DNA of 21,338 nucleotides from a virus. The first letter of the stretch is position 1, and each line of letters starts with the position of its first letter. The position numbers and the translations under genes are program-made. The stretch spans positions 1 through 21,338 of the IMG/VR virus record IMGVR_UViG_3300042988_001027; one strand, written 5' to 3'. Under the pieces are notes generated by a model that worked only from the letters and a program-made list of their open reading frames with translations, made no database searches and was not told where the DNA came from. Shown here in pieces: positions 8,794 through 21,338 of the stretch.

Positions 8794-9136
8794 TTTCTTG
8801 CTCCTTCGGTTCTTCTTGGTTTTTATCCCTGAGTTTGCTTTCGTTCAACATAATGATGTATGCTTCAGGTTTTGCATCCATCAGTTTGCTCAACAGCTGG
8901 TTCGCCTTATTCCTGCATCCTTCTTTAAAAGCTGTAAGATCCGGCATCCCCGTCACGAAACTTATCTCGTGAGCCGGAGATAGAAGACCCCAAATAAACC
9001 TTCTTCCTCTCGGATCACTTAAAACCCACAGAAGATCATTCGCCTCGCTGATCGCGCGGAATTTCTCTTTCTGTTTAGCGTTCTTAACCTGCTCCGGATC
9101 TGCCGCATTTTTCACAAAAGCTTTCGGCTCAGGCAT
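8771..9136 (-). CDS. Bbp19-like phage protein
   Basis: The 121-residue product contains LLWVLSDPRGRRFIWGLLSP, then AFKEGCRNKANQLLSKLMDA and PEAYIIMLNE. This is the pattern of the Bbp19 family (GRRFxWxLL, then AFxEGxRNxGxxLLxxx, then PEAYxxMxxE), small proteins encoded next to the scaffold in BPP-1-like phages. Its function is not established. The AAGGAGAC ribosome-binding site is encoded in the last codons of the upstream membrane-protein gene, and the two genes overlap by eight bases, so translation is probably coupled. The C-terminal 20 residues are charged and probably disordered. Confidence 0.78.
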   Translation of the reverse strand: MPEPKAFVKNAADPEQVKNAKQKEKFRAISEANDLLWVLSDPRGRRFIWGLLSPAHEISFVTGMPDLTAFKEGCRNKANQLLSKLMDAKPEAYIIMLNESKLRDKNQEEPKEQENGTDTRE

Positions 9137-10208
9137 TGGATGTCTCCTTTGCGGCTAGAGCAAATATCACAATCCCAAGAACGGCCAATCTCCCATAATG
9201 GAACATCGAGTGAAACGTCGAAAGGATTGCGATCCCAATTACAGCAGCAACGATCGCCCGGCTTTTTTTATTTAGCATCGCCGCAATGGCTACTAAAGCA
9301 GGGATAAGGCCTACGATTCCGGCCTCAAAGAAATGCTGATAGAATTCATTGTGCGCGAAGCGCCAATAATAGGCGTCCTGGCCGTTAAGCTTGAGGAATC
9401 CCTCATGCGCCCACGATCCGATGCCATTCCCAAAAATAAAATTATGAATATATTTTGCTGACCTTCCGATAACCTCGAATCTTGCGACGTCGATGCTTGG
9501 GTCTACGAAACACACGTACGCCAGCGCGAGAGCGATCCCGGCAAGAAAGATCGACCGAGAATGTTTCGGGATCATAAGAATAAACATGATTGCCGCCGAT
9601 ATCACACAAATAGAACTATGAGAAAGATACAGAGCCGGAGCCGCGATAAGACACAACCACGGGCTCAGGATATAAAGAAATGGGATAGAGAGAGCAGCGA
9701 AGCATCCCATCGCCCACGGCATGATGAATGTCCCGGAAACTTCTTTCGTAGCCCACGGGATATAGATCATGTCCTGTCCTGTCATTTGCCAATAAACAAA
9801 CACAAGCCCTACGACATGGGCAGCGAAAAGAAACACTCCAAAATGTTTGTTGGTAAATTTAATTCTTTCGGCCATTACCTTTATGGAAAAACACGCCATG
9901 AACATATTGGCGAAGGAAGCCTTTGCGAAGTTCGCCGGGTTCAAAAGCGTGCTCACCATGGCTGTCACAAGAACAACTCCTATAAGTTTTAAATCTACCG
10001 TCCGCTCTCTCTTAAAGAAAAAAGAAAGGACGGCGATGAGCCCTAGCGCGTAAAGCGACCAAAGCTCATCGCCATCTACTCTGTTGGGATAATAAAAAAC
10101 AAAGCTCCCAAACAACAAAGAAAGAACAAATGCATCAAACAATTTAAAGCGCTTTCCAGTTCGTTCCGTCAGAAATGCAGACGACGAACGATGTTCCGCC
10201 GACAACAC
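9129..10208 (-). CDS. O-antigen ligase/polymerase-like (WaaL/Wzy family) membrane protein
   Basis: This is a polytopic membrane protein with about ten hydrophobic segments and a large loop near residues 235-290. Residues 286-300 read HNEFYQHFFEAGIVG. This matches the WaaL signature H[NSQ]-x9-G-x-x-[GTY], and FGNGIGSW lies upstream at 259-266. Wzy_C/WaaL enzymes transfer or polymerise lipid-linked O-antigen on the periplasmic face of the inner membrane. The frame opens with GTG at 10208, overlapping the upstream gene by 65 bases. TTG at 10142 (TAAATTG with the upstream stop) would start directly at the first membrane segment and may be the true start. Such an enzyme has no role in head assembly, so I infer surface modification, for example receptor masking. 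Parts of the gene look AT-richer than its neighbours, suggesting acquisition. Confidence 0.85.
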   Translation of the reverse strand: MLSAEHRSSSAFLTERTGKRFKLFDAFVLSLLFGSFVFYYPNRVDGDELWSLYALGLIAVLSFFFKRERTVDLKLIGVVLVTAMVSTLLNPANFAKASFANMFMACFSIKVMAERIKFTNKHFGVFLFAAHVVGLVFVYWQMTGQDMIYIPWATKEVSGTFIMPWAMGCFAALSIPFLYILSPWLCLIAAPALYLSHSSICVISAAIMFILMIPKHSRSIFLAGIALALAYVCFVDPSIDVARFEVIGRSAKYIHNFIFGNGIGSWAHEGFLKLNGQDAYYWRFAHNEFYQHFFEAGIVGLIPALVAIAAMLNKKSRAIVAAVIGIAILSTFHSMFHYGRLAVLGIVIFALAAKETSNA

Positions 10209-10695
10209 CGCAATCCGTCGAGGAACTTGTATTTGTCATCGTGATGATCGTTCCAGCCGTCGCTCCAGAAGCCGGACGCGCGGCGGAGGAAATGGCCGTG
10301 ACTCTAAAACCCGACAATGATGCAGCCCCGCTCGCAATCGCTACAGCACCATTTAGCGCCGTAGTCCCGCTGACAGCTAACGTGTTCGTAAGCGTCGTGG
10401 CACCGTTCGCCGCGAGAGTTGTAAAGGCTCCAGTTGCGCGAGTCGTCGCGCCGACAGTGGAACTGTTAATGGCCGCGCCAGAGATAGTCCCTGACGTAAT
10501 CGCGCCTACTGATCCGGAAGAATTCGTAACGATATTGACCTGGTCACCAACCTTCGTGCAGGTCAAACCGTTGCTGCAATTCAGCTTGTTGATATGGCCT
10601 TTCTCTTCGCTGTCCTGATAGAGCTGAACGCTCGCGAAAGAAATGCTTGAAAGCGCAAACATCAGCGCCAGTGCGATCAAAAATACTTTTTTCAT
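10144..10695 (-). CDS. Secreted protein with phage tail-fibre-like repeats
   Basis: The 183-residue product has a clear Sec signal peptide (MKKVFLIALALMFALSSISFA, probable cleavage after residue 21). The mature part is Gly/Ser/Thr/Ala-rich, with a run such as ITSGTISGAAINSSTVGATT and ATGAFTTLAANGATTLTN. This resembles the INNTPIGxTTPxTGxFTTL repeats seen in phage tail-fibre and other beta-structured proteins. Two cysteines near the C-terminus (CGVVGGTSFVVC) could form a disulphide, which fits export. AAAAGGAG lies inside the end of the portal gene, and the start overlaps the portal stop (ATGA). A signal peptide is unexpected on a virion component, so a periplasmic or surface role is more likely. 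Confidence 0.82.
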   Translation of the reverse strand: MKKVFLIALALMFALSSISFASVQLYQDSEEKGHINKLNCSNGLTCTKVGDQVNIVTNSSGSVGAITSGTISGAAINSSTVGATTRATGAFTTLAANGATTLTNTLAVSGTTALNGAVAIASGAASLSGFRVTAISSAARPASGATAGTIITMTNTSSSTDCGVVGGTSFVVCISDGTNWKAL

Positions 10696-12422
10696 TTTTT
10701 ACTCCTTTTATTTTTTTTGCCTGCCAATTCGGTCAGGGCGTTATCTTCTTCAGTGGGTGAGTTTGCTAGATTTTTAACGGCTCCAGATACTTCTTTCGCA
10801 GCCAGGATTGCCTGCTGGGTCTCCTGCTGTTTCTGTGCAGCTGCCTTCATTTCCTCCACTACTTCGTCGGTTCGAACAACTCTAGGAGACACGCCTGAAC
10901 CGGCGGCGTACTCGTCAATAACTTGGTCAAAATCAACCTTCATAACATGGCTAGGATCGCCAGTCTGCCCAGCGATTCCTACGACGAAATTCGTGAACCG
11001 CTCCAAAGCACCAAGGCCAACTGCTTTTTGCGCCTCGGCCATTACGGAAATATATTCTACTTTCAATCGCTGGCCTTGGAGCTCTGGAGGGGGAGGAGGA
11101 AGGAGTCCCTGCGCGTTCATAAGATCAAATGCGATATCCGTTAAAGGATCCAAAAGATCCTGGTTTGTCTGTTCAAGCATCTGCCCGATCATAAACATTT
11201 TCTCTTGGGCTTTTGCTTCGATCTCTGTAGCCGTAATTTCTCTGCGATCGCTCTGGCTCATCATAAGGAACATGTCCTCATAATAAGCCTTCTGGATTAT
11301 CTTCTGAACAGCCTGGATATCCTGAAGAAGATAATTTAGATCGAGCCGGACTTCGTGTGCCGGCCGGAAGCCCTTCGTACCCTCGCGCTCGTCGAGGAAC
11401 GTAATGTCACCTGGGAGGATTGACGCCTTCGAAGTCCGAAGCGAAGTCGGTCCAACCATGGCTGGATTAACAGTCTTATCGATTCCCTGGTGCTTTCTTT
11501 TCTGTTCGTTCTGAAGCTGCTGAACGTCTCCAAGGGATGTCATCCCGGGGCAGTCGGTTCCATACACATCCTCACCGGTCGTTTCCCATCTCGGAGCCAG
11601 CACCGGGAAGAAGTCGTATCCGGATTCGCGGAGGAACGTATCGTTGTTCGGTTCGTACGCCCTTACACCGGCTCCTCCGTTCTCATAATATGAGCTTGAA
11701 TATTTCTTAAACTTCGAATTGAGCTTTTTGGGATCGTACTCATTGTTCGGCTCAATGCAGTGGGTTACATCGACCCATTCCTCGTACTGCCCTTTATCCC
11801 ACATATTTCTGACGTGCTGGCTGAACACGCTCCAGTCCGCAGATCCTGACGGAGTCTTCCTTCCAAACTTCATAATGAGTTGCCTGACAGTGAGACGGAA
11901 CTCGCGAGCGAATACGCGGACTTTCATTCTGTCGTCATTCGCAATCATGTAACTTCCGATCGGAAAAGGATAGGTCTGGATCACGTTCTCAAAATCTTCC
12001 TCGACAAGCATCGCGGCCGTCCCGAAATCGGCCATATCGCCGTAGACGATAGGGAGCGAGTTGTAAAGATTTGAGCGGCCGTACATATCAAGCATTCGTT
12101 TCGAGACATCGTCTAGCCACGTCTTGACAGGTCCGTACTCCATAAGGTCGCGGTCTGAGATCGCAAGCTTTTGCCACGGCCTAGCCGGAGATGTGATCCC
12201 GGCCATCATCCCGGCGCGGCACGTCCGGGATGCCAGGGTCGCCGTAGAGTCAATGATCTTCTGGTTTCTCCTCTCGCCGCGGTTGACGTCCGTAGTGAAA
12301 AACCTGGATCGTCGCGGACGAATGAATTCAGACAGCGCGCGCCAGTGAGAGAGAAACGAATTCCTCTCCTGCTTCATTGACTCTACCAGAGTGTTGAGAT
12401 GCTGGCGCTTCGTGTACTCCAT
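10692..12422 (-). CDS. Portal (head-tail connector) protein
   Basis: This 576-residue protein starts MEYTKRQHLNTLVESMKQER and contains EFIRPRRSRFF, ASRTCRAGMMAGITSPARPW, FGTAAMLVEE, FPVLAPRWETTGEDVYG, and PGDITFLDE. It ends in a Gln/Glu/Ala-rich coiled tail. These are the characteristic segments of the podovirus head-to-tail connecting (portal) family, which forms the dodecameric DNA gate and terminase docking site. Length is normal for the family. There is only a weak ribosome-binding signal; the start lies just after the stop of the small upstream gene (TAATAATG), so coupling is likely. Poly-A tracts near the 3' end encode Lys residues next to the following gene's ribosome-binding site. Confidence 0.93.
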   Translation of the reverse strand: MEYTKRQHLNTLVESMKQERNSFLSHWRALSEFIRPRRSRFFTTDVNRGERRNQKIIDSTATLASRTCRAGMMAGITSPARPWQKLAISDRDLMEYGPVKTWLDDVSKRMLDMYGRSNLYNSLPIVYGDMADFGTAAMLVEEDFENVIQTYPFPIGSYMIANDDRMKVRVFAREFRLTVRQLIMKFGRKTPSGSADWSVFSQHVRNMWDKGQYEEWVDVTHCIEPNNEYDPKKLNSKFKKYSSSYYENGGAGVRAYEPNNDTFLRESGYDFFPVLAPRWETTGEDVYGTDCPGMTSLGDVQQLQNEQKRKHQGIDKTVNPAMVGPTSLRTSKASILPGDITFLDEREGTKGFRPAHEVRLDLNYLLQDIQAVQKIIQKAYYEDMFLMMSQSDRREITATEIEAKAQEKMFMIGQMLEQTNQDLLDPLTDIAFDLMNAQGLLPPPPPELQGQRLKVEYISVMAEAQKAVGLGALERFTNFVVGIAGQTGDPSHVMKVDFDQVIDEYAAGSGVSPRVVRTDEVVEEMKAAAQKQQETQQAILAAKEVSGAVKNLANSPTEEDNALTELAGKKNKRSKK

Positions 12423-12424
12423 TA

Positions 12425-12706
12425 TTAAAGCCCTAAAATTGTTTTCGGTTTATCGTCCGGAGCTTCAGGATCCCCGAGGGGGCCGGTAAGGATCGTGTCA
12501 CGTTTCCCGGACGCGCCGGAGGCCTGCTGCTTCTGCCGATTCTTCGCGGCGTCGCGAGTCTTGTTGTTCTCATCATCCTGCTTCTGCTTTGCAAGCTCGG
12601 CGGCCCTTTGCGATTCGAGCTCCTGCTGCTTCCGCTTCGATTCCTCAGCCGCCTGTTTCGCAGCGTCGTCTTTCTTCCCACCAAAAGCGTCACCTAAAAA
12701 ACCCAT
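12425..12706 (-). CDS. Small coiled-coil protein upstream of portal
   Basis: This 93-residue protein begins MGFLGDAFGGKKDDAAKQAA. It has a long Ala/Glu/Lys/Gln/Arg helix (about residues 15-60) and ends with KRDTILTGPLGDPEAP and KTILGL. The same layout, a charged helix followed by TxLTGxxGx...KTLLG, is widespread in small proteins encoded next to portal genes in podoviruses and siphoviruses. Its function is not known to me; a head-associated or assembly role is inferred from position. GGAGGTG precedes the ATG. A second long frame in the same strand is a shadow with no ribosome-binding site. Confidence 0.75.
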   Translation of the reverse strand: MGFLGDAFGGKKDDAAKQAAEESKRKQQELESQRAAELAKQKQDDENNKTRDAAKNRQKQQASGASGKRDTILTGPLGDPEAPDDKPKTILGL

Positions 12707-12707
12707 T

Positions 12708-13157
12708 TCACACCTCCATCAGATATGTTTTTTCGTGAAGTTCAAAGCCGCGCTTCAAAAGTGCTCGCTCATTCACTTCCGTAAAACGGTTGAGAGAAAA
12801 AGAAATCCATTGTGCTTTTTGTTTTCCGAAATCAATGAAGGCGTTCATAAGCAGAGCCCCGGCTCGCGTGTGACGATATTCCGGGACAACCCACCAGAAA
12901 AGTTCGCAAAGGTACATGATGGAAGGATTGAAAAGGTGAGGATTGAAGTAGCCAGCCATGAAACCAATCGGCTCGCCATTTTCGTTAGCGGCGATATTGA
13001 GATAATGCTTATCGATGAGGAGCTGCAATCCATTTTTGGTGTACTCGTCATCACCATAAAGCTGATACTCCGTTTCGATGAATTTTGAAAACTCACGGAG
13101 CTGGATCATCAACCACGCTATATCACGCGCCTCAGCTCTTCTAAGAGTGTAGCTCAT
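12708..13157 (-). CDS. GNAT-family N-acetyltransferase
   Basis: This 149-residue protein starts MSYTLRRAEARDIAWLMIQL. It then has GEPIGFMAGYF (strand beta4), LCELFWWVVPEYRHTRAGALL (residues about 83-103, motif A, with a degenerate RHTRAG acetyl-CoA loop) and LKRGFELHEKTYLMEV at the end (motif B). This is a GNAT fold of normal length, transferring an acetyl group from acetyl-CoA to an unknown amine. Such genes occur beside terminase genes in several phage groups. Its SD is poor, and its ATG lies very close to a weak promoter-like sequence, so it may have its own transcript. The substrate cannot be predicted. Confidence 0.85.
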   Translation of the reverse strand: MSYTLRRAEARDIAWLMIQLREFSKFIETEYQLYGDDEYTKNGLQLLIDKHYLNIAANENGEPIGFMAGYFNPHLFNPSIMYLCELFWWVVPEYRHTRAGALLMNAFIDFGKQKAQWISFSLNRFTEVNERALLKRGFELHEKTYLMEV

Positions 13158-13267
13158 CTTGTGGTATTACTACATCAAAACACTACATATAGCAACAATA
13201 AAGAAAAATTATTTTTAATATGAGTGTCGGTAATATTGACGAAAGCTTAATTTGTATTGAGGAAACG
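13158..13267 (-). promoter_or_regulatory. AT-rich gap with weak promoter-like sequence and repeated ACTACAT motif
   Basis: This 110-bp gap follows the large terminase stop. On the minus strand TTGCTA (13195-13190), 17 bases and TAGTAA (13172-13167) form a weak sigma70-like promoter about ten bases before the acetyltransferase ATG. The plus strand shows ACTACAT twice (13169-13175 and 13182-13188). The motif TCAAAACACTACAT (13175-13188) recurs with one extra A at 16258-16272 in the divergent control region. No convincing terminator is present. Confidence 0.35.
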
Positions 13268-14722
13268 CTATTGTCTTGAGGGGTCGAACGGATCGTACTC
13301 GGACTTCATTTTCTGCTGGCCGTCCTGAATTTTGTGTAATTCGTACGCTGATGCCGCAGGCATCTCAGGAAGCGCGAACGTCAAGCAGAGAGCGTCGGAA
13401 TAATCCGGAGAGAAGCCGAGTCGTTTTTTTATTTGCTCTTTTTCTTCAACGCGAAATTTTCCATTATGGAATGTGTACGTTACAGACGGCAATTCTTTTC
13501 GCAGCTGTGGAATGTCAGGGAGATGGCCGCCGCGCTTCACCCACTCGGCCATCAAAAAATAAATTTCTGATCGCTTATTGAAATATCTTGGGTCGAGGGC
13601 TTTCCCGGCAAAATTCACTTCAACCGGGTTCCCGCCTCCCTGTAACATCGCATCGACAACGCCGGCGCCGTAGCCTCCGGTGCCATCTACGAATTCGATC
13701 TCGCTGTTCCATCGCTCTTTCGCGAGCATGGTGCGCGCTGCGACGACCTCAGTCCTTACGCCGCGAAGTTCAACGGGACGTCCGGAGAAAAGTCCCTGGC
13801 GAGGGAATATAACGTTCGCGTCCATTCCAAAGCGCGCGGCATCAATACCGAGACGTTTCTGAGCGAACTGATACTGATCAGGCCGCAGGTTTCGCTTCAT
13901 CGCTGTGTCGACCTCATCAAGAGAAAGAAGAGCGTTGATCGACGACGGAGGAAATTTTCCAAGGATGTAGGACATAACCCATGGGTCGGAGCGTCCATAT
14001 TTCGCGATCTGCTCGCGAGCCCACTCGATATCAATTCGCGGGGAACGCTTCGGATCGTCCGGGTCACCAGTGATCGAGATGACGTGCCATTTCTCGCGCA
14101 GCGTTGTCGCGGCCGCGTACAGCATTCCTTCGAGAGATGTTGGGTTTCCGGCCTGCACGATCTTTCCCCATTTGCAGTTCGAGAGACCTTGCTCGGCGGA
14201 TTTCAAGACCGCGACAGGAATGTCGCCTGACTCGTCAATGAGGTACAGGACGTACTCGCTATGAAGACCGGAAAGCGTTCGCCCCTGCTCCTCTTCGTCA
14301 GCGGTCTTTGACCAGGAGCGAAGGGACATGAACCAAGTCTCCGGGAAATCCCTTGATGCGATGCGCTCCTTCGTCCATTCGAACGCCGCTTTCAGGAATT
14401 CTGACCGGTTCTGCCATTTCGAGATCTCAGGCCAGATGTTGTCCCTGGCGTTGTCGCGCGTGATCGCGACCGTGGCGCCCTTTGGATGTTGACCGCGCCC
14501 GGCCTGGCAGGTGAGGAAATACAGCGCTGCCCACGCGAGCGCCGCGGATTTACCAGGACCGGCGCAGGCCTGGAGACTGATCCTCGATTTATTCTTGTCG
14601 GTCGAGCCCAGGGCTTCTAAAAACTCTAACTGCCAGGCGTCCGGCTCAACCTTGAAGTTGTCGCGAACGAATTTTACAGGATCCTTCCTCCAGCCGGCGA
14701 TCAGCTCACTTGCCTTGGACAC
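13268..14722 (-). CDS. terL: Terminase large subunit (ATPase-nuclease packaging motor)
   Basis: The 484-residue product has a Walker A-like loop ACAGPGKS (residues 52-59), a Walker B VLYLIDE (158-164) with catalytic Glu164, and a coupling motif AGNP (191-194). The C-terminal RNase H-like nuclease carries acidic residues Asp294 (LGIDAARFG), Asp346 (EFVDGTGG) and Asp443 (SPDYSDALC). It pumps DNA into the prohead through the portal and cuts the concatemer. The start is GTG at 14722 with GGGAG upstream (7-base spacing). The small-terminase gene ends 32 bases upstream. All expected catalytic elements are present, so it appears functional. Antisense and other frames across it are shadows. Confidence 0.95.
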   Translation of the reverse strand: MSKASELIAGWRKDPVKFVRDNFKVEPDAWQLEFLEALGSTDKNKSRISLQACAGPGKSAALAWAALYFLTCQAGRGQHPKGATVAITRDNARDNIWPEISKWQNRSEFLKAAFEWTKERIASRDFPETWFMSLRSWSKTADEEEQGRTLSGLHSEYVLYLIDESGDIPVAVLKSAEQGLSNCKWGKIVQAGNPTSLEGMLYAAATTLREKWHVISITGDPDDPKRSPRIDIEWAREQIAKYGRSDPWVMSYILGKFPPSSINALLSLDEVDTAMKRNLRPDQYQFAQKRLGIDAARFGMDANVIFPRQGLFSGRPVELRGVRTEVVAARTMLAKERWNSEIEFVDGTGGYGAGVVDAMLQGGGNPVEVNFAGKALDPRYFNKRSEIYFLMAEWVKRGGHLPDIPQLRKELPSVTYTFHNGKFRVEEKEQIKKRLGFSPDYSDALCLTFALPEMPAASAYELHKIQDGQQKMKSEYDPFDPSRQ

Positions 14723-14754
14723 GAAGGATCTCCCAAATGAACTTCACTTTCTCT

Positions 14755-15384
14755 TTAAACGACGCTTCCTTTAGCGCCATCATCAGTTCCGCCCTGGCCG
14801 CTTCCTGAAGCTTCCGAACCATCTCGAAGTCCGCGTTGGCTTTCTTTAGCATCCTCGATTGCCGTACCTTGAATTTCAAGTGGTACCTCCTTTATGGGTT
14901 CAATGCTCTGAACAAGAAGATCTTCCAAAGTCACCCGTCCCATGTGCAGGACCCTGGATGTGTCGATGAACAGCTGAAGGTTCTTCCCCAAAAGCTCAAG
15001 CGCGCGCAGTTTATCCGAAAATTTTACCTTCTGAACCTGGCCGATGAGCACGTCCTCCACCTTCAGTTCCTCGGTCTCGATGCTCACGATCGCCGAGGCC
15101 ACGTCCGGGGGAATGTCCTTGATCGGTTTCAAGGCGCCGTTGTCGTCATACGCCCTTCGAATGTCGACCAGGCCAATCCTCCGCAGCTCCTCCAGGATCT
15201 GTTTCACCATCACCCGGCTCCCGGACGTCTCCGCAACCGCGAGCGCGGTCTCGCGATCCTCATCACCCTTCACCCACCGCAGCATCTCAGCGTACGTCAC
15301 GCCCTTCCCGCATAAATACACAGGACCGCTCCCGCCCTCCGCGATGAATTCTAAGAATCCGTTCCAGATCGTCTCACACGCCAT
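14755..15384 (-). CDS. terS: Terminase small subunit-like protein
   Basis: This 209-residue protein (ATG at 15384, overlapping the preceding stop as TGATG) lies directly upstream of the large terminase. The N-terminal half contains GVTYAEMLRWVKGDEDRETA, an N-terminal helix-turn-helix-like segment, and the central part has KFSDKLRALELLGKNLQLFI. The latter is a motif of small terminases (xxSDKxRALExLGKxLGLF) that precedes the oligomerisation region. Small terminases recognise the packaging start site and stimulate the motor. The C-terminal 30 residues are Gly/Ser/Asp-rich and probably flexible. The frame extends upstream to a TTG at 15393, but the ATG coupled to the previous stop is a better choice. 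Confidence 0.85.
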   Translation of the reverse strand: MACETIWNGFLEFIAEGGSGPVYLCGKGVTYAEMLRWVKGDEDRETALAVAETSGSRVMVKQILEELRRIGLVDIRRAYDDNGALKPIKDIPPDVASAIVSIETEELKVEDVLIGQVQKVKFSDKLRALELLGKNLQLFIDTSRVLHMGRVTLEDLLVQSIEPIKEVPLEIQGTAIEDAKESQRGLRDGSEASGSGQGGTDDGAKGSVV

Positions 15385-15524
15385 CAGTGACAATGATATC
15401 CCCCAGTCGCGTACTCGTTATGGCAGCCGTATCCGTTCAACCCGCCGCCGTGCGCGAACGCGAATTTCGCGAAAAAGAATACCGCAATAATTGTAACCAA
15501 AGCCCACAGCCATCGATTTGCCAT
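15384..15524 (-). CDS. Tiny secreted YHCH-motif protein
   Basis: This 46-residue protein starts at ATG 15524, overlapping the upstream stop (TGATG), with AAGGAGAG seven to eight bases before it. Residues 1-24 form a Sec signal peptide (MANRWLWALVTIIAVFFFAK, then FAFA, cleavage before H25). The mature peptide is only about 22 residues: HGGGLNGYGCHNEYATGGYH followed by CH. The HGGGLN..GCH...GGYHCH signature is known from small secreted proteins and nuclease-associated tails and looks metal- or disulphide-binding (two Cys, several His). A longer frame beginning at 15578 exists but its extra N-terminus is hydrophilic and would hide the signal peptide. No role is known in phage; position suggests it is one of the first leftward genes made. 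Confidence 0.7.
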   Translation of the reverse strand: MANRWLWALVTIIAVFFFAKFAFAHGGGLNGYGCHNEYATGGYHCH

Positions 15525-15694
15525 CACTTCTCTCCTTTTTGGGTTTCGTCCCGGAAAAAAATTATCACCGGCTCCCACCAGTCACACTTCCGACATACCC
15601 ACACCTTCCTCCGCCGCGCGCATTTGATCTCGCTCGCGCACTCAGGACATTTTTTGTCGGAAATTTTTAAAATTTTTTTTCCAGAACTTTTCAT
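15524..15694 (-). CDS. Zinc-ribbon small protein, first gene of the leftward unit
   Basis: The 56-residue product (from ATG 15694) is basic. It contains CPEC (residues 16-19), Cys25 and CRKC (34-37), then DWWEP: a two-knuckle zinc ribbon of the kind that binds nucleic acid or proteins. The frame also opens five codons upstream at 15709, but that ATG lies upstream of and overlapping the -10 box of a good promoter (15701-15706), so ATG 15694, about seven bases after the -10 box, is the probable start. Its transcript would be nearly leaderless. The stop overlaps the next start (TGATG). Its function is unknown; a transcription-regulatory role is a guess from fold and position. Confidence 0.55.
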   Translation of the reverse strand: MKSSGKKILKISDKKCPECASEIKCARRRKVWVCRKCDWWEPVIIFFRDETQKGEK

Positions 15695-15700
15695 TGCAAA

Positions 15701-15729
15701 TTTATACATCAGTGTGGCGAAAAAGGCAA
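15701..15729 (-). promoter_or_regulatory. Leftward sigma70-like promoter
   Basis: On the minus strand TTGCCT (15729-15724) is followed after exactly 17 bases by TATAAA (15706-15701), then TTTGCA and ATG at 15694. It is placed to drive the leftward late block. The expected start point falls on or next to the ATG, so the first gene would have almost no leader. Confidence 0.65.
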
Positions 15730-16340
15730 CAAGAAAAAAGAAATATTTTTTAATCGCAAAATGGTGAGGATGGGATCCTATACGCCGCGCGTCGGAAAAC
15801 CCCGGGGGCCGGGGGTGGGGCCTACCTCCTTCCGAGCATCCAGGCGCGCAGGCAGGGCGCCCCGGGGCCTTGCATTATCGTCATATTTATATTTAATTGT
15901 GTGTTGCGCTTAGCGACATACAATATATGGGCATATTAGTTTACCGAAGTTGCGTTATAGGACGTATACGCCGTATTTCGCTTTAAATGCCCCAGGTGTG
16001 TCGAAAAGGTTTACGGCCACTGGACCATTCCCGGACCGGCGATAGGGCCGGAAATCGCGCCCAGTGTGTCGTTTTTCTGCCGGTTTTGTCCCACGTGTCC
16101 TACGGGCCCATGTTTTTTCGTGTTTTCAACACTTCCCAATAAATTCATTATCCTGGTGTACATGTAACATTTTCTCTCTTCACGTATATGCGCGTACATA
16201 GGACACATAGGCCATATAGGCCATATAGGTTTTCTATTGAGGTCTTTTTTCGACACGTCAAAAACACTACATGGGACAGCTAACCCGGGGCATCATTAAA
16301 GCTTTACGGAGCTAGGCCGATATTATTTGTGTCGAAATAG
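15730..16340. promoter_or_regulatory. Gene-free divergent control region, candidate origin
   Basis: No gene is supported in this 0.6-kb stretch between divergent transcription units. It contains GC-rich palindromes (CCCCGG-GGG-CCGGGG at 15800-15814; GCCCCGGGGC at 15859-15868), an AT-rich segment (about 15875-15960) with the palindrome CGTATACG (15963-15970), inverted clusters of 9-bp repeats (16088-16114 and 16198-16233), and copies of TGTCGAAA in either orientation (15999-16006, 16248-16255). An 81-codon minus-strand frame (16011-16256) spans the repeats but has no ribosome-binding site and starts with GTG. The mix of AT-rich DNA, iteron-like repeats and operator-like sites fits a replication origin and/or regulatory hub; this is inference. 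Confidence 0.5.
16088..16233. repeat. Two inverted clusters of 9-bp repeats
   Basis: On the plus strand 16198-16233 reads ATAGGACAC, ATAGGCCAT, ATAGGCCAT, ATAGGTTTT. On the minus strand 16114-16088 reads CATGGGCCC, GTAGGACAC, GTGGGACAA. The core GGACAC/GGCCAT recurs every nine bases, in opposite orientation in the two clusters. The segments 16090-16104 and 16197-16211 pair over 15 positions, with three G-U pairs when read as minus-strand RNA. They resemble plasmid or phage iterons, but the pairing also fits an RNA hairpin. Confidence 0.6.
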
Positions 16341-16376
16341 TTGACATAGTAAATTAATTCGTGTAGTATTTCGACA
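16330..16376 (+). promoter_or_regulatory. Rightward promoter within a 10-bp inverted repeat (operator)
   Basis: TTGACA (16341-16346), 17 bases and TAGTAT (16364-16369) make a near-consensus sigma70 promoter 38 bases before the first right-arm gene. It is embedded in a perfect inverted repeat, TGTCGAAATA (16330-16339) and TATTTCGACA (16367-16376), one arm abutting the -35 and the other covering the -10. A repressor dimer binding here would block transcription. A related site TTTCGACACGTCAAA (16248-16262) matches TTTCGACAAGTCAAA (16369-16383) at 14 of 15 positions. Confidence 0.75.
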
Positions 16377-16406
16377 AGTCAAAGCGCTGATGCGCGAGGG
16401 GGAAAT

Positions 16407-16745
16407 ATGAAAAATCCGAAACCATGGTCAAGCGGTACCAAGTTAAACGGACGCGGTGGAATATTCGACAAGAACGGCGCGCCGATAAAATGCACGGACG
16501 AAGAAACGCGCCAGGAGATTGTGCGCGCGGTTAACGGAGTGGACAATGCGCGCCTGGAAGAGTTGGAGAACTTCATCCAGGACGCGCGCGCGTTCATCGA
16601 ATGGGCATGTGAAAACGGCCGGATGGATATTATCGGGTCTACTCTGTCGCATGATATCGCGCGCCTCGCGCGCCGTTACGCTTGCTTTTCTCCGCGTGTT
16701 TCCGGGTATGCGAAAAGGGGGACGAATGGGGGATGCGCCCGGTAA
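16407..16745 (+). CDS. First right-arm protein, unknown function
   Basis: The 112-residue product follows the rightward promoter, with GAGGGGG four bases before the ATG. The N-terminal part (MKNPKPWSSGTKLNGRGGIF) is basic and flexible. Residues about 34-90 are helical: ETRQEIVRAVNGVDNARLEE, then ARAFIEWACENGRMDIIGST. The pattern of a RAVNxxxxxLEEL segment followed by FIxWAC is familiar from small phage accessory proteins of unknown function. The C-terminus is Arg/Gly-rich. The reading frame has a strong GCGCGC bias. I cannot assign a role; an early accessory or host-takeover protein is only a guess from position. Confidence 0.7.
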   Translation: MKNPKPWSSGTKLNGRGGIFDKNGAPIKCTDEETRQEIVRAVNGVDNARLEELENFIQDARAFIEWACENGRMDIIGSTLSHDIARLARRYACFSPRVSGYAKRGTNGGCAR

Positions 16746-16759
16746 AGAAATAGGCCGAA

Positions 16760-16800
16760 ACCGGGGGCGCTCGCTCCCGGTCCGCGTGTAATTGCACGCG
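16760..16800 (+). promoter_or_regulatory. Tandem intergenic hairpins
   Basis: ACCGGGGGC (16760-16768), loop GCTC, GCTCCCGGT (16773-16781) forms a 9-bp stem with one G-U pair. CGCGTG (16783-16788), loop TAATTG, CACGCG (16795-16800) is a perfect 6-bp stem right after it. No U-tract follows. The pair sits in the gap between two small genes and may be an attenuator, processing site or distant relative of the repeated element at 18062 and 20353. Confidence 0.6.
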
Positions 16801-16841
16801 CTGACGAGGCCAGGAAAGCCGGAAAGAAATAGGGGGATAAA

Positions 16842-17027
16842 ATGAGAACGTACGAATTCGAGATTATTACCGGGGAGAAAAAAATCGTTACAGTCGAAGC
16901 TTGCAATATCCGCGAGGCGCGCGAGCTTGTTACCGATTGCGACAACTGGACGAGCGAGGACGACATCGAAACTGATACCATCGTCCTGGACAAAGGTAAA
17001 GAACTTGTTGGGCACGAAGAGGAATGA
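16842..17027 (+). CDS. Small acidic protein, unknown function
   Basis: This 61-residue protein (MRTYEFEIITGEKKIVTVEA...) has an alternating beta-type N-terminus and a very acidic C-terminus (ELVGHEEE). It contains the segment VEACNIREARELVTD, which recalls short phage proteins with an ExxxNxxEAxxxV stretch, a common but uncharacterised pattern. AGGGGG lies five bases before the ATG. No signal peptide, Cys pair or membrane segment is present. Function unknown. Confidence 0.65.
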   Translation: MRTYEFEIITGEKKIVTVEACNIREARELVTDCDNWTSEDDIETDTIVLDKGKELVGHEEE

Positions 17028-17066
17028 GGCCGGACGTCAACAGATCATAAAACAAGGGGGTATAAA

Positions 17067-17489
17067 ATGGGATACATCGTCGAAAGGGAGTATGTAACGG
17101 AAACGCGCATCGAACGGAAAGAAATGAAGCGCCTGGAAGATTGGCGCCAGGTTTCTTTTCAATCGTCCACCGGGAAGACGGAAGAATTTAAAGCTTTCGC
17201 GCGTATGTTCCGGGCGCGCATCAAGAAAGAGGCCGGGCGCTTTGGTCTGTCCCTGGCCGATTTTAATACCGGGCATTTCTACGCGTCCGGGTTTTTAAAG
17301 AATGAGCGGACCGGGAACTATGTTTATTTTTCAACCGACGACGTGCGCGGTTCTTCCCGGTGGTATACCGATATCCTTGTAAGGTCCGCGAAGAACGAGA
17401 AAGATTACACCGGGGGCATAAATCAAAGCGCGAGCATTCCGAAATTCGGAGAAGCGTGCGCCAGGATTGCGGAAGGGGGCCGGGCATGA
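17067..17489 (+). CDS. Conserved-type phage protein paired with gp88-like gene
   Basis: The 140-residue product contains EFKAFARMFRARIKKEAGRF, then GHFYASGFLKNERTGNYVYF, STDDVRGSSRWYTDILVR and NEKDYTGGINQSASI. The segment YVYFSxxDVRxxxxxWYxxILxRxAKxxKDYTGGxN is one I associate with uncharacterised proteins in phage accessory regions; no enzymatic motif is obvious. AAGGGGG precedes the ATG, spaced by TATAAA. Its stop overlaps the start of the next gene (ATGA), so it is likely made together with the gp88-like protein. A role in phage-host interaction or nucleic-acid binding is possible but unsupported. Confidence 0.75.
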   Translation: MGYIVEREYVTETRIERKEMKRLEDWRQVSFQSSTGKTEEFKAFARMFRARIKKEAGRFGLSLADFNTGHFYASGFLKNERTGNYVYFSTDDVRGSSRWYTDILVRSAKNEKDYTGGINQSASIPKFGEACARIAEGGRA

Positions 17490-18058
17490 AGATATCCAAA
17501 GGAAATTCGAAGCTCGGCGCCATTCCGAATATTTCAATGTCGCCGATTAAATCATGCGGGAACTGTTCCGCGTGCGCGAAGGATTGTTACGCGCTAAAGT
17601 CCTATCGTCAGTACCCGGCCACGCGGAAGGCATGGGACCATAATTTCCGCGAGGCCGTTAACAACCGGGACGCGCATTTCCTCGCGCTTAAAGAGGACCT
17701 ACAGAAAAGGCGCCCCAAACATTTTAGGTGGCACGTGTCCGGGGACATCCTGGACCAAGACTACCTCCAAAGAATGAAGCTCCTCGCGTACTTGTGCCCG
17801 GAGACTAAATTCCTCGCGTTCACTAAAATGCACGGCATGGATTATAGCGGACGGCCGTCGAATTTAATAATCCGCTTCAGCATGTGGCCGGGCATGGACG
17901 GCATTCTACGCGCGAAGGTGGCCGGGGCGCCGTGCGCGTGGCTCCAGGACGGAACAGAGGACCGCATCCCCAAAAACGCGGTTAAATGCCCGGGTAGTTG
18001 CGAGAATTGCAAGGCCTGCTTTAACAGCACGAAGGACGTTTACTTTTTTAAACATTAA
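17486..18058 (+). CDS. Gene-product-88 (gp88) family protein with two four-Cys clusters
   Basis: The 190-residue protein starts at ATG 17486, overlapping the previous stop, with AAGGGGG upstream. A longer in-frame opening at 17360 reads through the upstream gene and is not supported. Residues 24-34 are CGNCSACAKDC, followed by YALKSYR. HVSGD is at 83-87, FLAFTK lies about 35 residues later, and residues 168-178 are CPGSCENCKAC. This is the layout of the gene-product-88 family of mycobacteriophages and many other phages (KTCP...C...CYA, HxSGD, C-terminal Cys cluster). Function is unknown; the clusters suggest an Fe-S or zinc site, and the HxSGD region a catalytic or binding role. Confidence 0.85.
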   Translation: MKISKGNSKLGAIPNISMSPIKSCGNCSACAKDCYALKSYRQYPATRKAWDHNFREAVNNRDAHFLALKEDLQKRRPKHFRWHVSGDILDQDYLQRMKLLAYLCPETKFLAFTKMHGMDYSGRPSNLIIRFSMWPGMDGILRAKVAGAPCAWLQDGTEDRIPKNAVKCPGSCENCKACFNSTKDVYFFKH

Positions 18059-18061
18059 TAG

Positions 18062-18119
18062 GCCCGGGGCCATTAGGCCGGGCGCGTCCGGGGCAGAGCA
18101 TCGCCCCGGGGTTGGCAAA
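18062..18119 (+). repeat. Repeated two-hairpin intergenic element, copy 1
   Basis: Stem I pairs GCCCGG (18062-18067) with CCGGGC (18078-18083), loop GGCCATTAGG. Stem II pairs CCGGGGC (18088-18094) with GCCCCGG (18103-18109), loop AGAGCATC. Then GGTTGGCAAA follows. Copy 2 (20353-20436) shares TTAGGCCGGG, GCGTCC, AGCAT and GGCAA. One pair in each stem is changed on both sides between copies. Confidence 0.65.
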
Positions 18120-18131
18120 TCGCTCTTTAAA

Positions 18132-18256
18132 CGCTCCAGGACGAGCCGAAAGGCGCGGACGGCTCCAAGTATGGCTTGGCGCGCTACGAAGCCAGGGCGC
18201 GAAGCCTGGCGCAAGCCGGACGGCTCGAAATACGGCGCGCCGGGCGCCCTGGAGCG
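18132..18256 (+). ncRNA. Candidate multi-helix structured RNA
   Basis: In the gap between gp88-like and the next gene (302 bases without a supported gene), CGCTCCAGG (18132-18140) pairs perfectly with CCTGGAGCG (18248-18256). Nested inside, CGAGCCG (18142-18148) pairs with CGGCTCG (18221-18227). Inside that are two local hairpins: CCAAG/CTTGG (18165-18179) and GCCAGG/CCTGGC (18191-18210). The result is a branched fold. A 56-codon frame from ATG 18171 to 18341 overlaps and has no convincing ribosome-binding site, so RNA is the better reading, at modest confidence. Direction of the RNA is assumed from the flanking genes. Confidence 0.4.
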
Positions 18257-18360
18257 GTACCGGCAAGCAAGACCCGGAGCGCCGTCGATCGCCGGGGATC
18301 TCCCGGGAGTCGGACGGCGCCGGATAACGGACGGATTTTAACGATTGAAAGGGGGAAGAC

Positions 18361-18546
18361 ATGAAAAAGCAGGGCCTGCCCTGGTTCGATTTCGTAGAAG
18401 AGCCGGAGCAGAAGCGCGGAATGCGATATATAACGGACCGCCGGCACCGCATCGGACAGTTCCAGGCGATTGTCCCGGCCGATACCGCGCTCCGTTTTTT
18501 GAAGTTAAGAACAGAGTACCGAAAAATAAAAGGGGGTTTGAAATGA
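18361..18546 (+). CDS. Small basic protein, unknown function
   Basis: The 61-residue product (MKKQGLPWFDFVEEPEQKRG...) is basic, with RYITDRRHRIGQFQ and a C-terminal helix (ALRFLKLRTEYRKI). AAAGGGGG precedes the ATG by five bases. The stop overlaps the next start (ATGA). There is no recognisable domain. It is the first gene after the structured intergenic stretch and could be regulated by it. Confidence 0.65.
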   Translation: MKKQGLPWFDFVEEPEQKRGMRYITDRRHRIGQFQAIVPADTALRFLKLRTEYRKIKGGLK

Positions 18547-18815
18547 AGCTGACAACAGAAAACAACAGATATCGGATGTTTTCCGTAAGTTACTCGGGAC
18601 CAACGGAGAGCGGTCGCGGTTCCCGGGTGATCATCCGCGACATGCGCCACGGAAAAACGAAGGTTATACCCTACCGCTACGACATGAACCGCATCGGGGA
18701 CATGGCGGAAGAGTATCTCGAAAAATGCCTTGGCATTTCATGCGATGGCCTCGCTATGACGAAGTCAGGGCCGGATTTCATTCTCTCGAAAGATTTCAGT
18801 ACACCATTAAAATAA
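18543..18815 (+). CDS. Small hypothetical phage protein
   Basis: The 90-residue product starts at ATG 18543 with AAAAGGGGG seven bases upstream. The frame is open further upstream (to 18345), but that region covers the preceding gene and lacks a ribosome-binding site. It contains RMFSVSYSGPTESGRGSRVI, GKTKVIPYRYDMN and AEEYLEKCLGISCDGLAM, suggesting a small alpha-beta fold with two Cys in the second half. Function unknown. Confidence 0.68.
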   Translation: MKLTTENNRYRMFSVSYSGPTESGRGSRVIIRDMRHGKTKVIPYRYDMNRIGDMAEEYLEKCLGISCDGLAMTKSGPDFILSKDFSTPLK

Positions 18816-18828
18816 AAGGGGGTGCCTT

Positions 18829-19128
18829 ATGGACTGGAAAGCGGAATTTAACGGACGGCAAAAAGGCGCGATTGGAATTTTTCACCCGGTCGTGTGCATG
18901 GTAACGGCGGATAGCAGAGACAAGGCCATTATCCGGCTCTATGATAATTGGGAATGTATCACGGATCTAAAGCTAGAGCCGGCAATTTATGAACTCGAAA
19001 CGGCGATGGTCTCTCTTATGGACGCGATAAAATGGGACGGCGCCGGGACCACTGGGACAATAAAAGGGGATGACGTTCCGGAGGTCCTCGAAGAATTATG
19101 GCGGACACATAAAAAGAAAGGGGTTTAA
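18829..19128 (+). CDS. Small acidic protein, unknown function
   Basis: The 99-residue product has an N-terminal beta-type half (MDWKAEFNGRQKGAIGIFHP, VCMVTADSRDKAIIRLYDNW) and a more helical C-terminal half (PEVLEELWRTHKKKG). The VTADSxxxAIxxLYDxWE stretch recalls uncharacterised early-region phage proteins that feed on a common alpha-beta pattern. AAAAGGGGGTG is six bases before the ATG. The stop lies one base before the next start. Function not known. Confidence 0.65.
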   Translation: MDWKAEFNGRQKGAIGIFHPVVCMVTADSRDKAIIRLYDNWECITDLKLEPAIYELETAMVSLMDAIKWDGAGTTGTIKGDDVPEVLEELWRTHKKKGV

Positions 19129-19129
19129 A

Positions 19130-19306
19130 ATGACCCACTTCACACCACGAACGAAGCAGGCCCTGGTAGATTGGCTTTCGATGTATTGGCCGGAAGACCG
19201 GGCAAAATTTCAACAAAAAACAAAGGCGGTGCTTTATGGGATACATTTTAGGGTTTTGGCTGATATTCGTCGCGGTAAGTACCCCGGCGCGCGCGTCAGT
19301 GCCTGA
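19130..19306 (+). CDS. Small phage protein overlapping the endolysin gene
   Basis: This 58-residue protein starts at ATG 19130 with AAAGGGG spaced by TTTAAA. It begins MTHFTPRTKQALVDWLSMYW, then PEDRAKFQQKTKAVLYGIHF. The pattern TxxTKxALxxWLxxxYPEDxxKFxxxxKxxLYxIxF is one I recognise from short phage ORFs of unknown function. Its last 71 bases are also used, in another frame, by the endolysin gene. A longer opening at 19070 runs through the previous gene and lacks a ribosome-binding site. Confidence 0.65.
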   Translation: MTHFTPRTKQALVDWLSMYWPEDRAKFQQKTKAVLYGIHFRVLADIRRGKYPGARVSA

Positions 19307-19622
19307 AGCGGACGCGGTCCGGGCGATTGTCGGCGAATGCGCGAACTGTGGAGAGCGCGGAATGCAGGCGGTCGCGGAAGTGATTCGGCGCCGGGATAGT
19401 CTCCGGGGGATCTACGGCTTCAAGGCTTCACACGTCGACCATGAGCCGGATTGGGTATGGAGGCAGGCAGAGAAAGCATGGCGGACGTCCGCGGATAGCA
19501 ACATAACGAACGGCGCCGATCATTTCGAGTCGATCGATTTCAAAACACCGGCATGGGCGAAAGGCCTGGCGCCGGTGTCAACTGTAGGTAAACACCGGTT
19601 CTACCGGTTGAAGGGGGTGTGA
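19236..19622 (+). CDS. Exported SleB-type cell-wall hydrolase (probable endolysin)
   Basis: The 128-residue product has a signal peptide (MGYILGFWLIFVAVSTPARA, cleavage before S21). Then comes a hydrolase domain: AIVGECANCGERGMQAVAEV (probable catalytic Glu34 in GE), IYGFKA, ITNGADHFES, PAWAKGLAP and VGKHRFYRL. These are the signatures of the SleB/Hydrolase_2 family of peptidoglycan-cleaving enzymes, used by phages as endolysins. The Sec signal means it can cross the inner membrane without a holin. It starts within the preceding gene, but has AAAGGCGGTGC before its ATG, close to the signal of other right-arm genes. The extra Cys pair (C35, C38) next to the active site is unusual. Confidence 0.85.
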   Translation: MGYILGFWLIFVAVSTPARASVPEADAVRAIVGECANCGERGMQAVAEVIRRRDSLRGIYGFKASHVDHEPDWVWRQAEKAWRTSADSNITNGADHFESIDFKTPAWAKGLAPVSTVGKHRFYRLKGV

Positions 19623-19623
19623 A

Positions 19624-19809
19624 ATGAACGTAACATGTGATGTATGTCTGAGCGGATGCGATTACGGAGACAAGAAAACATTAAAATCCTACACGCGAAA
19701 GATGAACGGCCGGAAGATCGTAATGTGCGCCGAATGCGAAGATGATTTCTTTCGTAAGGCGCACAAGGACCAGGACGTCCGGCTAAAGATCGCGCCGGAG
19801 GGGGTGTGA
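19624..19809 (+). CDS. Small double-CxxC protein (zinc-ribbon type)
   Basis: The 61-residue product has CDVC (residues 5-8), Cys12, and CAEC (35-38), separated by a basic stretch (KKTLKSYTRKMNGRKIVM). This is a compact zinc-ribbon layout, likely binding nucleic acid or protein. AAGGGGGTG precedes the ATG. It lies one base after the endolysin stop and one base before the next gene. Function unknown. Confidence 0.7.
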   Translation: MNVTCDVCLSGCDYGDKKTLKSYTRKMNGRKIVMCAECEDDFFRKAHKDQDVRLKIAPEGV

Positions 19810-19810
19810 T

Positions 19811-20101
19811 ATGTTTTTCGTTGATGATCTTGACGGAAAATGGACGCTGTCAGTAACCCATGAGGATGGATCGACGGAGAGCTGTATAACTGTCGTGGGT
19901 GATGACGATTGGATTTATCCGGATGATTTTAAAAAGCAGATCGGCCAGGAGCTTCCATTCGTTGTCAATGTGTTTAATGGGTCCGAGAAAGTCCCGGAGA
20001 TCAATGTCTACGCTTTGCCGGACAATTGGAAGCAGATCACCGGTCCCGGGAAAAAGTCAGTTCACGATGTGATGTATGAAATCGAAAACAAGGGGGTGTA
20101 A
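19811..20101 (+). CDS. Small acidic phage protein, unknown function
   Basis: This 96-residue protein is acidic and beta-rich at first (MFFVDDLDGKWTLSVTHEDG, STESCITVVGDDDWIYPDDF). It continues with ELPFVVNVFNGSEKVPEINV and a helical end. The ribosome-binding site is GAGGGGGTG, six bases before the ATG. It ends with the next gene's AAGGGGGTG signal inside its last codons. No known domain is recognised. Confidence 0.65.
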   Translation: MFFVDDLDGKWTLSVTHEDGSTESCITVVGDDDWIYPDDFKKQIGQELPFVVNVFNGSEKVPEINVYALPDNWKQITGPGKKSVHDVMYEIENKGV

Positions 20102-20102
20102 T

Positions 20103-20342
20103 GTGGAAACGATGATAATTGTTGTGCCGGCATCAAACAAAAAAATTGATAGGTCATTTCTCGAAATGAGGACCGGAGACCTTGAGACAACCTATCAAAC
20201 GCGCCAGGAATTAATCAAGGCGCTGAGAGGAAAAGGAAAATATACACTGTACAATCTCTCCGCGTTTCAAGATGCATGGAATAACGAGGAGCTGACCGCC
20301 GAGGATCACTGGCTCGGGTTCGTGACAGTATCAAAAGACTAA
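20103..20342 (+). CDS. Small hypothetical protein with GTG start
   Basis: The 79-residue product starts at GTG 20103, spaced like its neighbours from AAGGGGGTG. A 20076 ATG in the same frame lies upstream of that signal, inside the previous gene, and is not supported; ATG 20112 is an alternative. It reads METMIIVVPASNKKIDRSFL..., with TTYQTRQELIKALRGKGKYT, YNLSAFQDAWNNEEL and WLGFVTVSKD. The ETTxxTRxELIxALRxxxxxxxYxLxxFxxxxNDEEL pattern is a small phage protein type I have met without function. Confidence 0.65.
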   Translation: METMIIVVPASNKKIDRSFLEMRTGDLETTYQTRQELIKALRGKGKYTLYNLSAFQDAWNNEELTAEDHWLGFVTVSKD

Positions 20343-20352
20343 CCCCCAAGCG

Positions 20353-20436
20353 TCCCGGCGCATAGTGCCTTAGGCCGGGAGCGTCCAGGCGCCAGCATGG
20401 GCCTGGGGTGGCAATTAACCGCCGGAGTTATCCGGC
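20353..20436 (+). repeat. Repeated two-hairpin intergenic element, copy 2, with third hairpin
   Basis: Stem I pairs TCCCGG (20353-20358) with CCGGGA (20375-20380). Stem II pairs CCAGGC (20385-20390) with GCCTGG (20401-20406), loop GCCAGCATGG. A third hairpin, GCCGGA-GTTA-TCCGGC (20421-20436), lies just before the ribosome-binding site of the next gene. Shared blocks with copy 1: TTAGGCCGGG, GCGTCC, AGCAT, GGGGT and GGCAA. Confidence 0.65.
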
Positions 20437-20451: not shown

Positions 20452-20715
20452 ATGGACAAGATCAATTCAAAAGAAGAACAATATAAAAGGCTCCTGGAGC
20501 TGATTTCGGAGAAAAGATCGGACATTGCGGACGTCTTGGAGGCGATCGAGGCCGGGCGCCCATGGGATGACGACTGGATCGAGCACCGGTTCATTACGGC
20601 CACGCTCCAGGACAAAACAGAAGTGCAGTATGATACTCTGACGACGGAGATCAGCTATCTCCCGGCTAATGAAGAGGAATGGAAAAAGGCGGAGGCACAC
20701 AAATATGAGGACTAA
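20452..20715 (+). CDS. Small helical protein, unknown function
   Basis: The 87-residue product starts with MDKINSKEEQYKRLLELISE and continues KRSDIADVLEAIEAGRPWDD, DWIEHRFITATLQDK and a charged C-terminus. The first half is a helical coiled segment. AAAAGGGGGG is five bases before the ATG, directly downstream of the third hairpin of copy 2, so this start could be sensitive to RNA structure. Function unknown. Confidence 0.66.
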   Translation: MDKINSKEEQYKRLLELISEKRSDIADVLEAIEAGRPWDDDWIEHRFITATLQDKTEVQYDTLTTEISYLPANEEEWKKAEAHKYED

Positions 20716-20851
20716 ACGTTTAGCGGTAGTTCTGCACTCGGAGCGTCCGCACTGGATCGACGTAGAATGGCTCGACGATGAAGCCAAGCGTCAGCTTGAT
20801 ATTTCTGATCGGTCCCGGTCAATCGAAGAACAACAACGGAGGAAGCCATGA
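20705..20851 (+). CDS. Very small protein, unknown function
   Basis: This 48-residue protein starts at ATG 20705 with GGAGG nine bases upstream, inside the previous gene. It reads MRTKRLAVVLHSERPHWIDV, then EWLDDEAKRQLDISD and a basic Arg/Gln-rich end. An earlier ATG (20669) in the same frame lies upstream of that signal. The stop overlaps the next start (ATGA). Short proteins ending in a basic tail are common in this part of phage genomes; no function is assignable. Confidence 0.55.
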   Translation: MRTKRLAVVLHSERPHWIDVEWLDDEAKRQLDISDRSRSIEEQQRRKP

Positions 20852-21030
20852 AAAAGAAAACTTGCCTTGAGGATCATACCAAAAAGGAACTGATCGATAT
20901 TATTTGCGAGATGCAGGACTACGAGTTTAAAGCGGAGTGCCATATCATCTCGCAGGCGGAAAGGATCCGGAAGCTCTTAAAAGAGCGCCGTCTTAAAATG
21001 GCCGTGAACAACAAAAGGGGGAAGCCATGA
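20848..21030 (+). CDS. Small basic helical protein, unknown function
   Basis: The 60-residue product (MKKKTCLEDHTKKELIDIIC...) begins with a short KKELIDIICEMQD helix. It continues with a second helix (HIISQAERIRKLLKERRLKM) and a basic tail, and has three Cys. GGAGG precedes the ATG, unlike the G-run sites of most right-arm genes. The stop overlaps the next start (ATGA). The KEELIxxIxxMQxxxxxA pattern is widespread in small phage regulators or accessory proteins, but its role is unknown. Confidence 0.65.
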   Translation: MKKKTCLEDHTKKELIDIICEMQDYEFKAECHIISQAERIRKLLKERRLKMAVNNKRGKP

Positions 21031-21308
21031 AAAGAAGAAAGCCGACCATAACGGATTTCATTAAGATGCACGAGGTCAAGCGCTACAACCTGGAGCAGAA
21101 GGCGCCGACGAAGAAAGCGCTAAAGGAGTGGTTCTATCTATCCGGGATTATCGACGGCGCGAAGACGATCAAAAGGACTTGCACCATGACCGCGGTCCTT
21201 CTTATGATCGCCGGCACCGCGTATGCCGGGCAAGACTTCACTGTTAACGACTCCGGCGGATCTCAGCAGGTCTGCACGATGTCCCAAGGCCAGATTTACT
21301 GCCGGTAA
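21027..21308 (+). CDS. Small protein with internal signal-peptide-like segment
   Basis: This 93-residue protein has a hydrophilic, basic first half (MKRRKPTITDFIKMHEVKRY...). At residue 54 MTAVLLMIAGTAYAGQ looks like a Sec signal peptide (AYA|GQ), leaving a 26-residue mature tail with two Cys (VCTMSQGQIYCR). AAAAGGGGG drives the first ATG. An internal ATG at 21186 has AAAGGA about eight bases upstream and could start a separate secreted peptide of 40 residues, giving a nested gene. Alternatively the full-length protein is a type II membrane protein. Its position after the endolysin-containing cluster allows a lysis role, but nothing proves it. Confidence 0.7.
   Translation: MKRRKPTITDFIKMHEVKRYNLEQKAPTKKALKEWFYLSGIIDGAKTIKRTCTMTAVLLMIAGTAYAGQDFTVNDSGGSQQVCTMSQGQIYCR
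21186..21308 (+). CDS. Possible nested secreted peptide
   Basis: In frame within the previous entry, ATG 21186 opens a 40-residue product whose first 14 residues are a compact signal peptide with an AYA cleavage site. The mature peptide has two Cys near its end. An AAAGGA stretch sits eight bases before the ATG. This may be an internal translation start producing a second product from the same gene, as in several phage lysis genes. Confidence 0.3.
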   Translation: MTAVLLMIAGTAYAGQDFTVNDSGGSQQVCTMSQGQIYCR

Positions 21309-21315: not shown

Positions 21316-21338
21316 CCCCGGGATCGGGGCAGAGCATC
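21316..21338 (+). repeat. Repeated intergenic element, copy 3, cut by window edge
   Basis: CGGGGCAGAGCATC (21325-21338) is identical to 18089-18102, the 5' arm and loop of stem II in copy 1. CCCCG-GGAT-CGGGG can pair just before it. The 3' arm would fall beyond the window. Confidence 0.5.

Follow-up and report, generated by a model that had tools for sequence, protein, structure and literature searches.

A predicted pistol ribozyme and a P1-less companion at gene-block junctions of an epsilon15-like phage

Introduction

The catalytic and structural nucleotides of the pistol self-cleaving ribozyme are R32, G33-C41, G40, G42 and the G-U junction (PMC6154101, PMC4604425), and its cleavage chemistry produces a 5′-OH and a 2′,3′-cyclic phosphate (PMC4604425). 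Among other ribozyme classes, hammerheads flank genes or gene blocks in prophages, where a role in transcript processing has been proposed (PMC3088659). The class and the processing idea having both been published, the surprise in the present locus is limited; what is new is an unrecognised pistol ribozyme at the junctions described here.

The window, that is, the whole stretch of DNA analysed, is a 21.3-kb IMG/VR record. Compared with named phages, its capsid and head-tail adaptor share 59% and 46% identity, respectively, with the epsilon15/phiV10 group, and tail and terminase families were also identified, so that by sequence it is assigned to an epsilon15-like podovirus. Judged by the same kind of evidence, its rightward arm appears to carry an unrecognised pistol ribozyme (copy 2), a companion lacking P1 (copy 1) and a fragment cut by the contig end (Table 1).

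Table 1. Features of the rightward arm and of its ribozyme-like elements
Feature	Position	Strand	Remarks
Gene upstream of copy 1	17486..18058	+	Gp88 family (PF17338)
Copy 1, pistol without P1	18062..18116	+	RF02679 29.9 bits, R1 39.5 bits
Copy 1 pseudoknot	18062-18067/18078-18083	+	
Copy 1 P2	18069-18072/18113-18116	+	
Copy 1 P3	18087-18094/18103-18110	+	
Copy 1 core	R32=G18076, G33=G18077, G40=G18084, C41=C18085, G42=G18086	+	
Copy 1 predicted cleavage site	between G18111 and U18112	+	if active
Eight small genes, copy 1 to copy 2	18361..20342	+	gaps of at most 13 nt
Cell-wall-hydrolase-like gene	19236-19622	+	weak match; in the eight-gene block
Copy 2, pistol with all helices	20348..20413	+	RF02679 and R1 matches
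Copy 2 P1	20350-20352/20359-20361, plus A20348-U20363	+	
Copy 2 pseudoknot	20353-20358/20375-20380	+	
Copy 2 P2	20366-20369/20410-20413	+	
Copy 2 P3	20384-20390/20401-20407	+	
Copy 2 core	R32=G20373, G33=G20374, G40=G20381, C41=C20382, G42=G20383	+	
Copy 2 predicted cleavage site	between G20408 and U20409	+	
Four overlapping small genes, copy 2 to third element	20452..21308	+	
Possible third element, cut by contig end	21309..21338	+	14-nt identity with copy 1

Identification of the element

An earlier note on this DNA had described a repeated two-hairpin element between gene groups and had called for an Rfam search. The sequence words said to be shared by copies 1 and 2 are present exactly where they were placed, as are the named pairs, 18062 G-18083 C in copy 1 against 20353 U-20380 A in copy 2, and 18090 G-18107 C against 20387 A-20404 U. 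When searched against Rfam, the repeated element matches the pistol ribozyme (RF02679, curated cut-off 34.5 bits). Copy 2 (20348-20413, + strand) scores 35.8 bits, barely above this gathering score, and copy 1 (18069-18116, + strand) scores 29.9 bits, below it, with a match confined to model positions 24-68, from P2 onward. The similarity seen in the two copies is not due to chance: with this record searched alone the E-values are 5.5e-7 for copy 2 and 1.3e-5 for copy 1, and among 14 control genomes there is no match at the RF02679 cut-off. A covariance model built from phage pistols and both window copies, R1, gives 57.9 bits for copy 2 and 39.5 bits for copy 1, matches that are partly by construction; no other site in the window exceeds 14 bits. 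No other Rfam match was found in window positions 1-18050.

Seen as a pistol, the element is longer than had been described, with P1 lying upstream in copy 2 and P2 closing the 3′ end. Of the two stems proposed, the second is retained as P3, whereas the first is the pistol pseudoknot helix; P1 and P2 had been missed. The broader claim, a structured RNA with compensatory changes between gene groups, is upheld and can be given a name, copy 2 being by sequence a pistol self-cleaving ribozyme.

Copy 2 begins 5 nt past the stop codon at 20342, and the next ATG is at 20452. Its P1 is short, consisting of three pairs and an A-U pair beyond an A-A mismatch, and its four-nucleotide J1/2 linker, AUAG, lacks the usual UAAA and departs from the Rfam consensus AUAAAuA. 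As two other pistols, L049 and L050 (the latter read out in L008), also deviate in this linker, with an inserted hairpin, J1/2 is treated here as variable and not as defining for the class.

Core nucleotides, pseudoknot and covariation

All of the nucleotides R32, G33-C41, G40 and G42 and the GU junction are found in both copies. Each copy has a six-pair pseudoknot of the kind that joins the P1 loop and the P2-P3 junction (the strand in copy 1 having no P1 loop around it), and in each, P2 and P3 are separated by a cleavage junction of strictly two nucleotides, GU.

Pairing was assessed in an alignment of 11 phage pistols: both window copies and nine others, which had been found by a pattern fixing part of the core and then by the Rfam model, a caveat to the figures that follow. 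The pseudoknot-inclusive structure is paired in 97.4% of cells, and 11 of its 19 pairs are changed on both sides; such double-sided changes occupy 32 cells, against 8.9 in shuffles. Sliding the pair partners by 1-3 columns lowers pairing to 33-51%. The MAFFT row of copy 1 is gapped across P1 and the pseudoknot strand, and its pseudoknot was checked by eye. This strong covariation, which includes the pseudoknot change from U-A to G-C, agrees with the selection on pairing proposed earlier. The G-C end pair of the copy 1 pseudoknot also occurs in two further phage pistols (L045 and L047). An A-to-C change beside G40 in copy 1 was considered as core damage and rejected, as it belongs to this end pair and covaries. 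Single-strand folding alone is uninformative (z of -1.4 and -0.4), which is expected given the central place of the pseudoknot in the structure.

The pseudoknot-type hammerhead ribozyme has the same helix connectivity and a secondary structure nearly identical to that of pistol (PMC11300833). Its CUGAUGA core loop is absent from both copies, however; after P2 comes the four-nucleotide loop of pistol, UUAG, and then G33 with the GCGU block, and Rfam returns pistol and no hammerhead, so that this assignment has almost no probability. Were the elements hairpins of an intrinsic terminator or attenuator, this would account for the GC-rich P3 hairpins and for their position between gene groups, but the conserved nucleotides are in unpaired core positions and in a pseudoknot, neither of which a terminator requires. 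No terminator-like site is called at either copy, and because no T-run follows the stems, terminator function is very improbable; the attenuation suggested in the earlier note is unsupported for the same reason.

Copy 1 and the missing P1

Copy 1 retains the catalytic nucleotides, the G-U junction, the pseudoknot, P2 and P3. A single nucleotide (J1/2) links its pseudoknot strand to P2, and this strand lies outside any P1 loop. Disruption of P1 in one assayed pistol led to a substantial loss of activity (PMC4604425); since P1 is absent here, weak activity or decay is probable for copy 1. When viral contigs were scanned with a pattern for P1-less pistols, no further example emerged; scans of genomes gave two matches, which lack P3 or P2 and are ascribed to chance.

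The 20-nt P3 hairpin of copy 1, CGGGGCAGAGCATCGCCCCG, has one exact occurrence elsewhere, in a viral contig (L221:11310-11329, - strand), where no pistol core accompanies it; this occurrence is possibly due to chance.

Genome setting

From position 17067, the + strand forms an arm of small, tightly packed genes. Only three gaps between 17067 and 21338 exceed 20 nt (after 18058, 20342 and 21308). Each contains one of the copies or the fragment, in every case directly behind a stop codon, that upstream of copy 1 ending at 18058. Ahead of the arm is a promoter-like site (16341-16369), weak as evidence, since nine such sites occur in the region against 5.4 expected. By blastn the right arm has no match in named phages, and loci reached through its genes (L034, L225 and L226) contain no Rfam match at cut-off.

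Downstream of copy 1 is a GC-rich gap of about 225 nt (18120-18345) with a 29-nt direct repeat (at 18156 and 18217). Three of the differences between the repeat copies are synonymous in a DGSKYG reading, but the frame breaks because the copies are 61 nt apart. The gap has a fold z-score of -2.6 and may be a coding remnant or a structured RNA.

At the right edge, the 14 nt at 21325-21338 are identical to the 5′ arm and loop of copy 1 P3, an identity unlikely to arise by chance, as the longest obtained with about 2,950 random segments of 30 nt was 11 nt. No pistol core is found within the 30 nt between the last stop codon and the contig end, and neither RF02679 nor R1 matches there. Of the third copy proposed earlier, the 14-nt identity is real, but with only these 30 nt visible and no core among them, it is no more than a candidate copy. 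The proposed mobility or duplication is no more than a possibility: identity between the two copies, at 81%, falls inside the range of 61-93% observed between pistols of other phage contigs. Local duplication is nevertheless hinted at by the AGCAU loop motif that both copies have and by the identity of the 14-nt tail.

Being repeated and partly palindromic phage DNA, the copies could in principle act as a DNA-level signal, such as a packaging site, a recombination site or a REP-like palindrome. The agreement with an RNA family extends to unpaired catalytic positions, and the location is strand-specific, behind stop codons, which makes a DNA-level role exceedingly improbable. The packaging signal raised in the earlier note is also without support, in a dsDNA tailed phage and with the same RNA class present at gene junctions of unrelated phages.

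Ribozymes in other phages

Pistol matches are found in none of 50 epsilon15-like records, and the pistol is therefore a non-essential feature of this group. A weak R1 match in one relative (L191, 19 bits) was rejected, as it showed no pistol core on inspection. Among the long relatives the nearest, G039 (87% identity in the capsid and 74% in the tail), carries in the same arm one twister-P5-like match (L053:14086-14138) of 34.8 bits, below the cut-off of 37.6, located two nucleotides past the stop codon of an ORF. No homology was found between the right-arm genes of the window phage and G039.

In a separate observation, the terminase large subunit of G039 (L053:9486-11867, - strand) is interrupted in frame at its Walker A motif by some 300 aa with a LAGLIDADG match above the Pfam cut-off and a weak Hint domain match, and is predicted to contain an intein. 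In other relatives (L152, L164, L187, L189, L200, L212, L217 and L218) the terminase match starts only at residue 58-59, and these terminases may have an intein too.

Mixed sets of ribozymes occur in several other phage contigs. L021 combines two pistols with seven type-II hammerheads, L028 a pistol with a twister-sister, L060 a pistol with a twister-P5, and L058 two pistols with a twister-P1-like match below its cut-off. Most of the pistols, twisters and hammerheads in other phages start 1-16 nt past a stop codon, and the start that follows is about 20-55 nt further on; exceptions include two L021 hammerheads, at 63-64 nt, and L020, where the starts are 102-126 nt away. In Streptomyces phage Loofah, a stretch of 12.6 kb contains 11 type-II hammerheads. 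Of the 13 gaps there that measure at least 50 nt, 9 enclose a whole hammerhead, and one of these, a 248-nt gap, is overlapped by another as well.

The Loofah hammerheads (L224, PQ244019, 40000-52574) all score above the Rfam cut-off, on the coding strand and mostly in gene gaps, and none of the eleven is annotated in the record. The L021 ribozymes form an array within 6 kb (L021:3742-9597, genome G019), with one behind almost every gene. As dozens of Streptomyces phages, along with three of Gordonia, give short blastn matches to L021, elements similar to the L021 and Loofah hammerheads may be common in those phages. Beside tRNA genes in L060 is a DUF3800-VIII RNA motif just above cut-off (L060:6320-6384).

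Proposed role

Placement behind stop codons, dividing a phage arm into gene blocks, points to cutting of transcripts at junctions as a putative role of the pistol; hammerhead, twister and twister-sister ribozymes arranged likewise in other phages point the same way. We consider it probable that the pistol ribozyme stands at gene-block junctions of the rightward arm to cut a long transcript into separate mRNAs, and cutting during transcription is the most likely and best-supported role. The processing signal suggested in the earlier note is in this form supported by sequence, as a pistol ribozyme between gene groups. Copy 2 would fold while the arm is transcribed and cut between G20408 and U20409. 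The upstream mRNA would keep the ribozyme hairpins and end in a 2′,3′-cyclic phosphate, and the downstream mRNA would start with a 5′-OH about 43 nt before the next ATG. One long phage transcript would thereby be resolved into gene-block mRNAs, each with its own stability, the effect of such ends on mRNA decay being one that we infer.

Pistols might also be passengers that are carried from phage to phage through recombination at the ends of genes, cleave themselves harmlessly and decay, with no benefit for mRNA processing. This would fit the patchy distribution, with no match in the 50 relatives, the loss of P1 from copy 1, the absence of a core from the visible part of the third element, and the single twister-P5-like match that G039 has in the same arm instead. 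It fits less well with a site that is consistently after the stop codon and before the ribosome-binding site, for several classes and in unrelated phages, which suggests selection on location, or with the persistence of one complete copy in the window genome; we regard it as unlikely. Improbable, too, is a compound proposal in which copy 1 is active as a minimal, P1-less pistol, its pseudoknot strand passing into P2 via one nucleotide in the manner of an H-type pseudoknot, and in which ribozyme classes (pistol here, twister in G039) swap at junctions as interchangeable RNA scissors in this phage group. Loofah and similar Streptomyces phages, in which many unannotated hammerheads occupy gene junctions, offer a culturable test system for transcript cutting.

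Comparison with known systems

The element shares with described pistols (RF02679; Weinberg 2015, Harris 2015) the core nucleotides, the six-pair pseudoknot, P2 and, in copy 2, P1, together with a P3 that has a U-G closing pair and a two-nucleotide GU junction; proximity to phage genes has already been described for the class. It differs from the usual pistol in the short P1 and the short, A-poor J1/2 of copy 2 and in the absence of P1 from copy 1, and its setting, the gene-block junctions of a GC-rich epsilon15-like podovirus, differs from those of known pistols. Like the G039 element, it is a member of a self-cleaving ribozyme family and follows a stop codon in the same arm, the two phages being related, but it is of a different class and lies among right-arm genes without detected homology. 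As in the clustered prophage hammerheads (Perreault 2011, PMC3088659), several ribozymes divide an operon into blocks and the same role is proposed, the class here being pistol.
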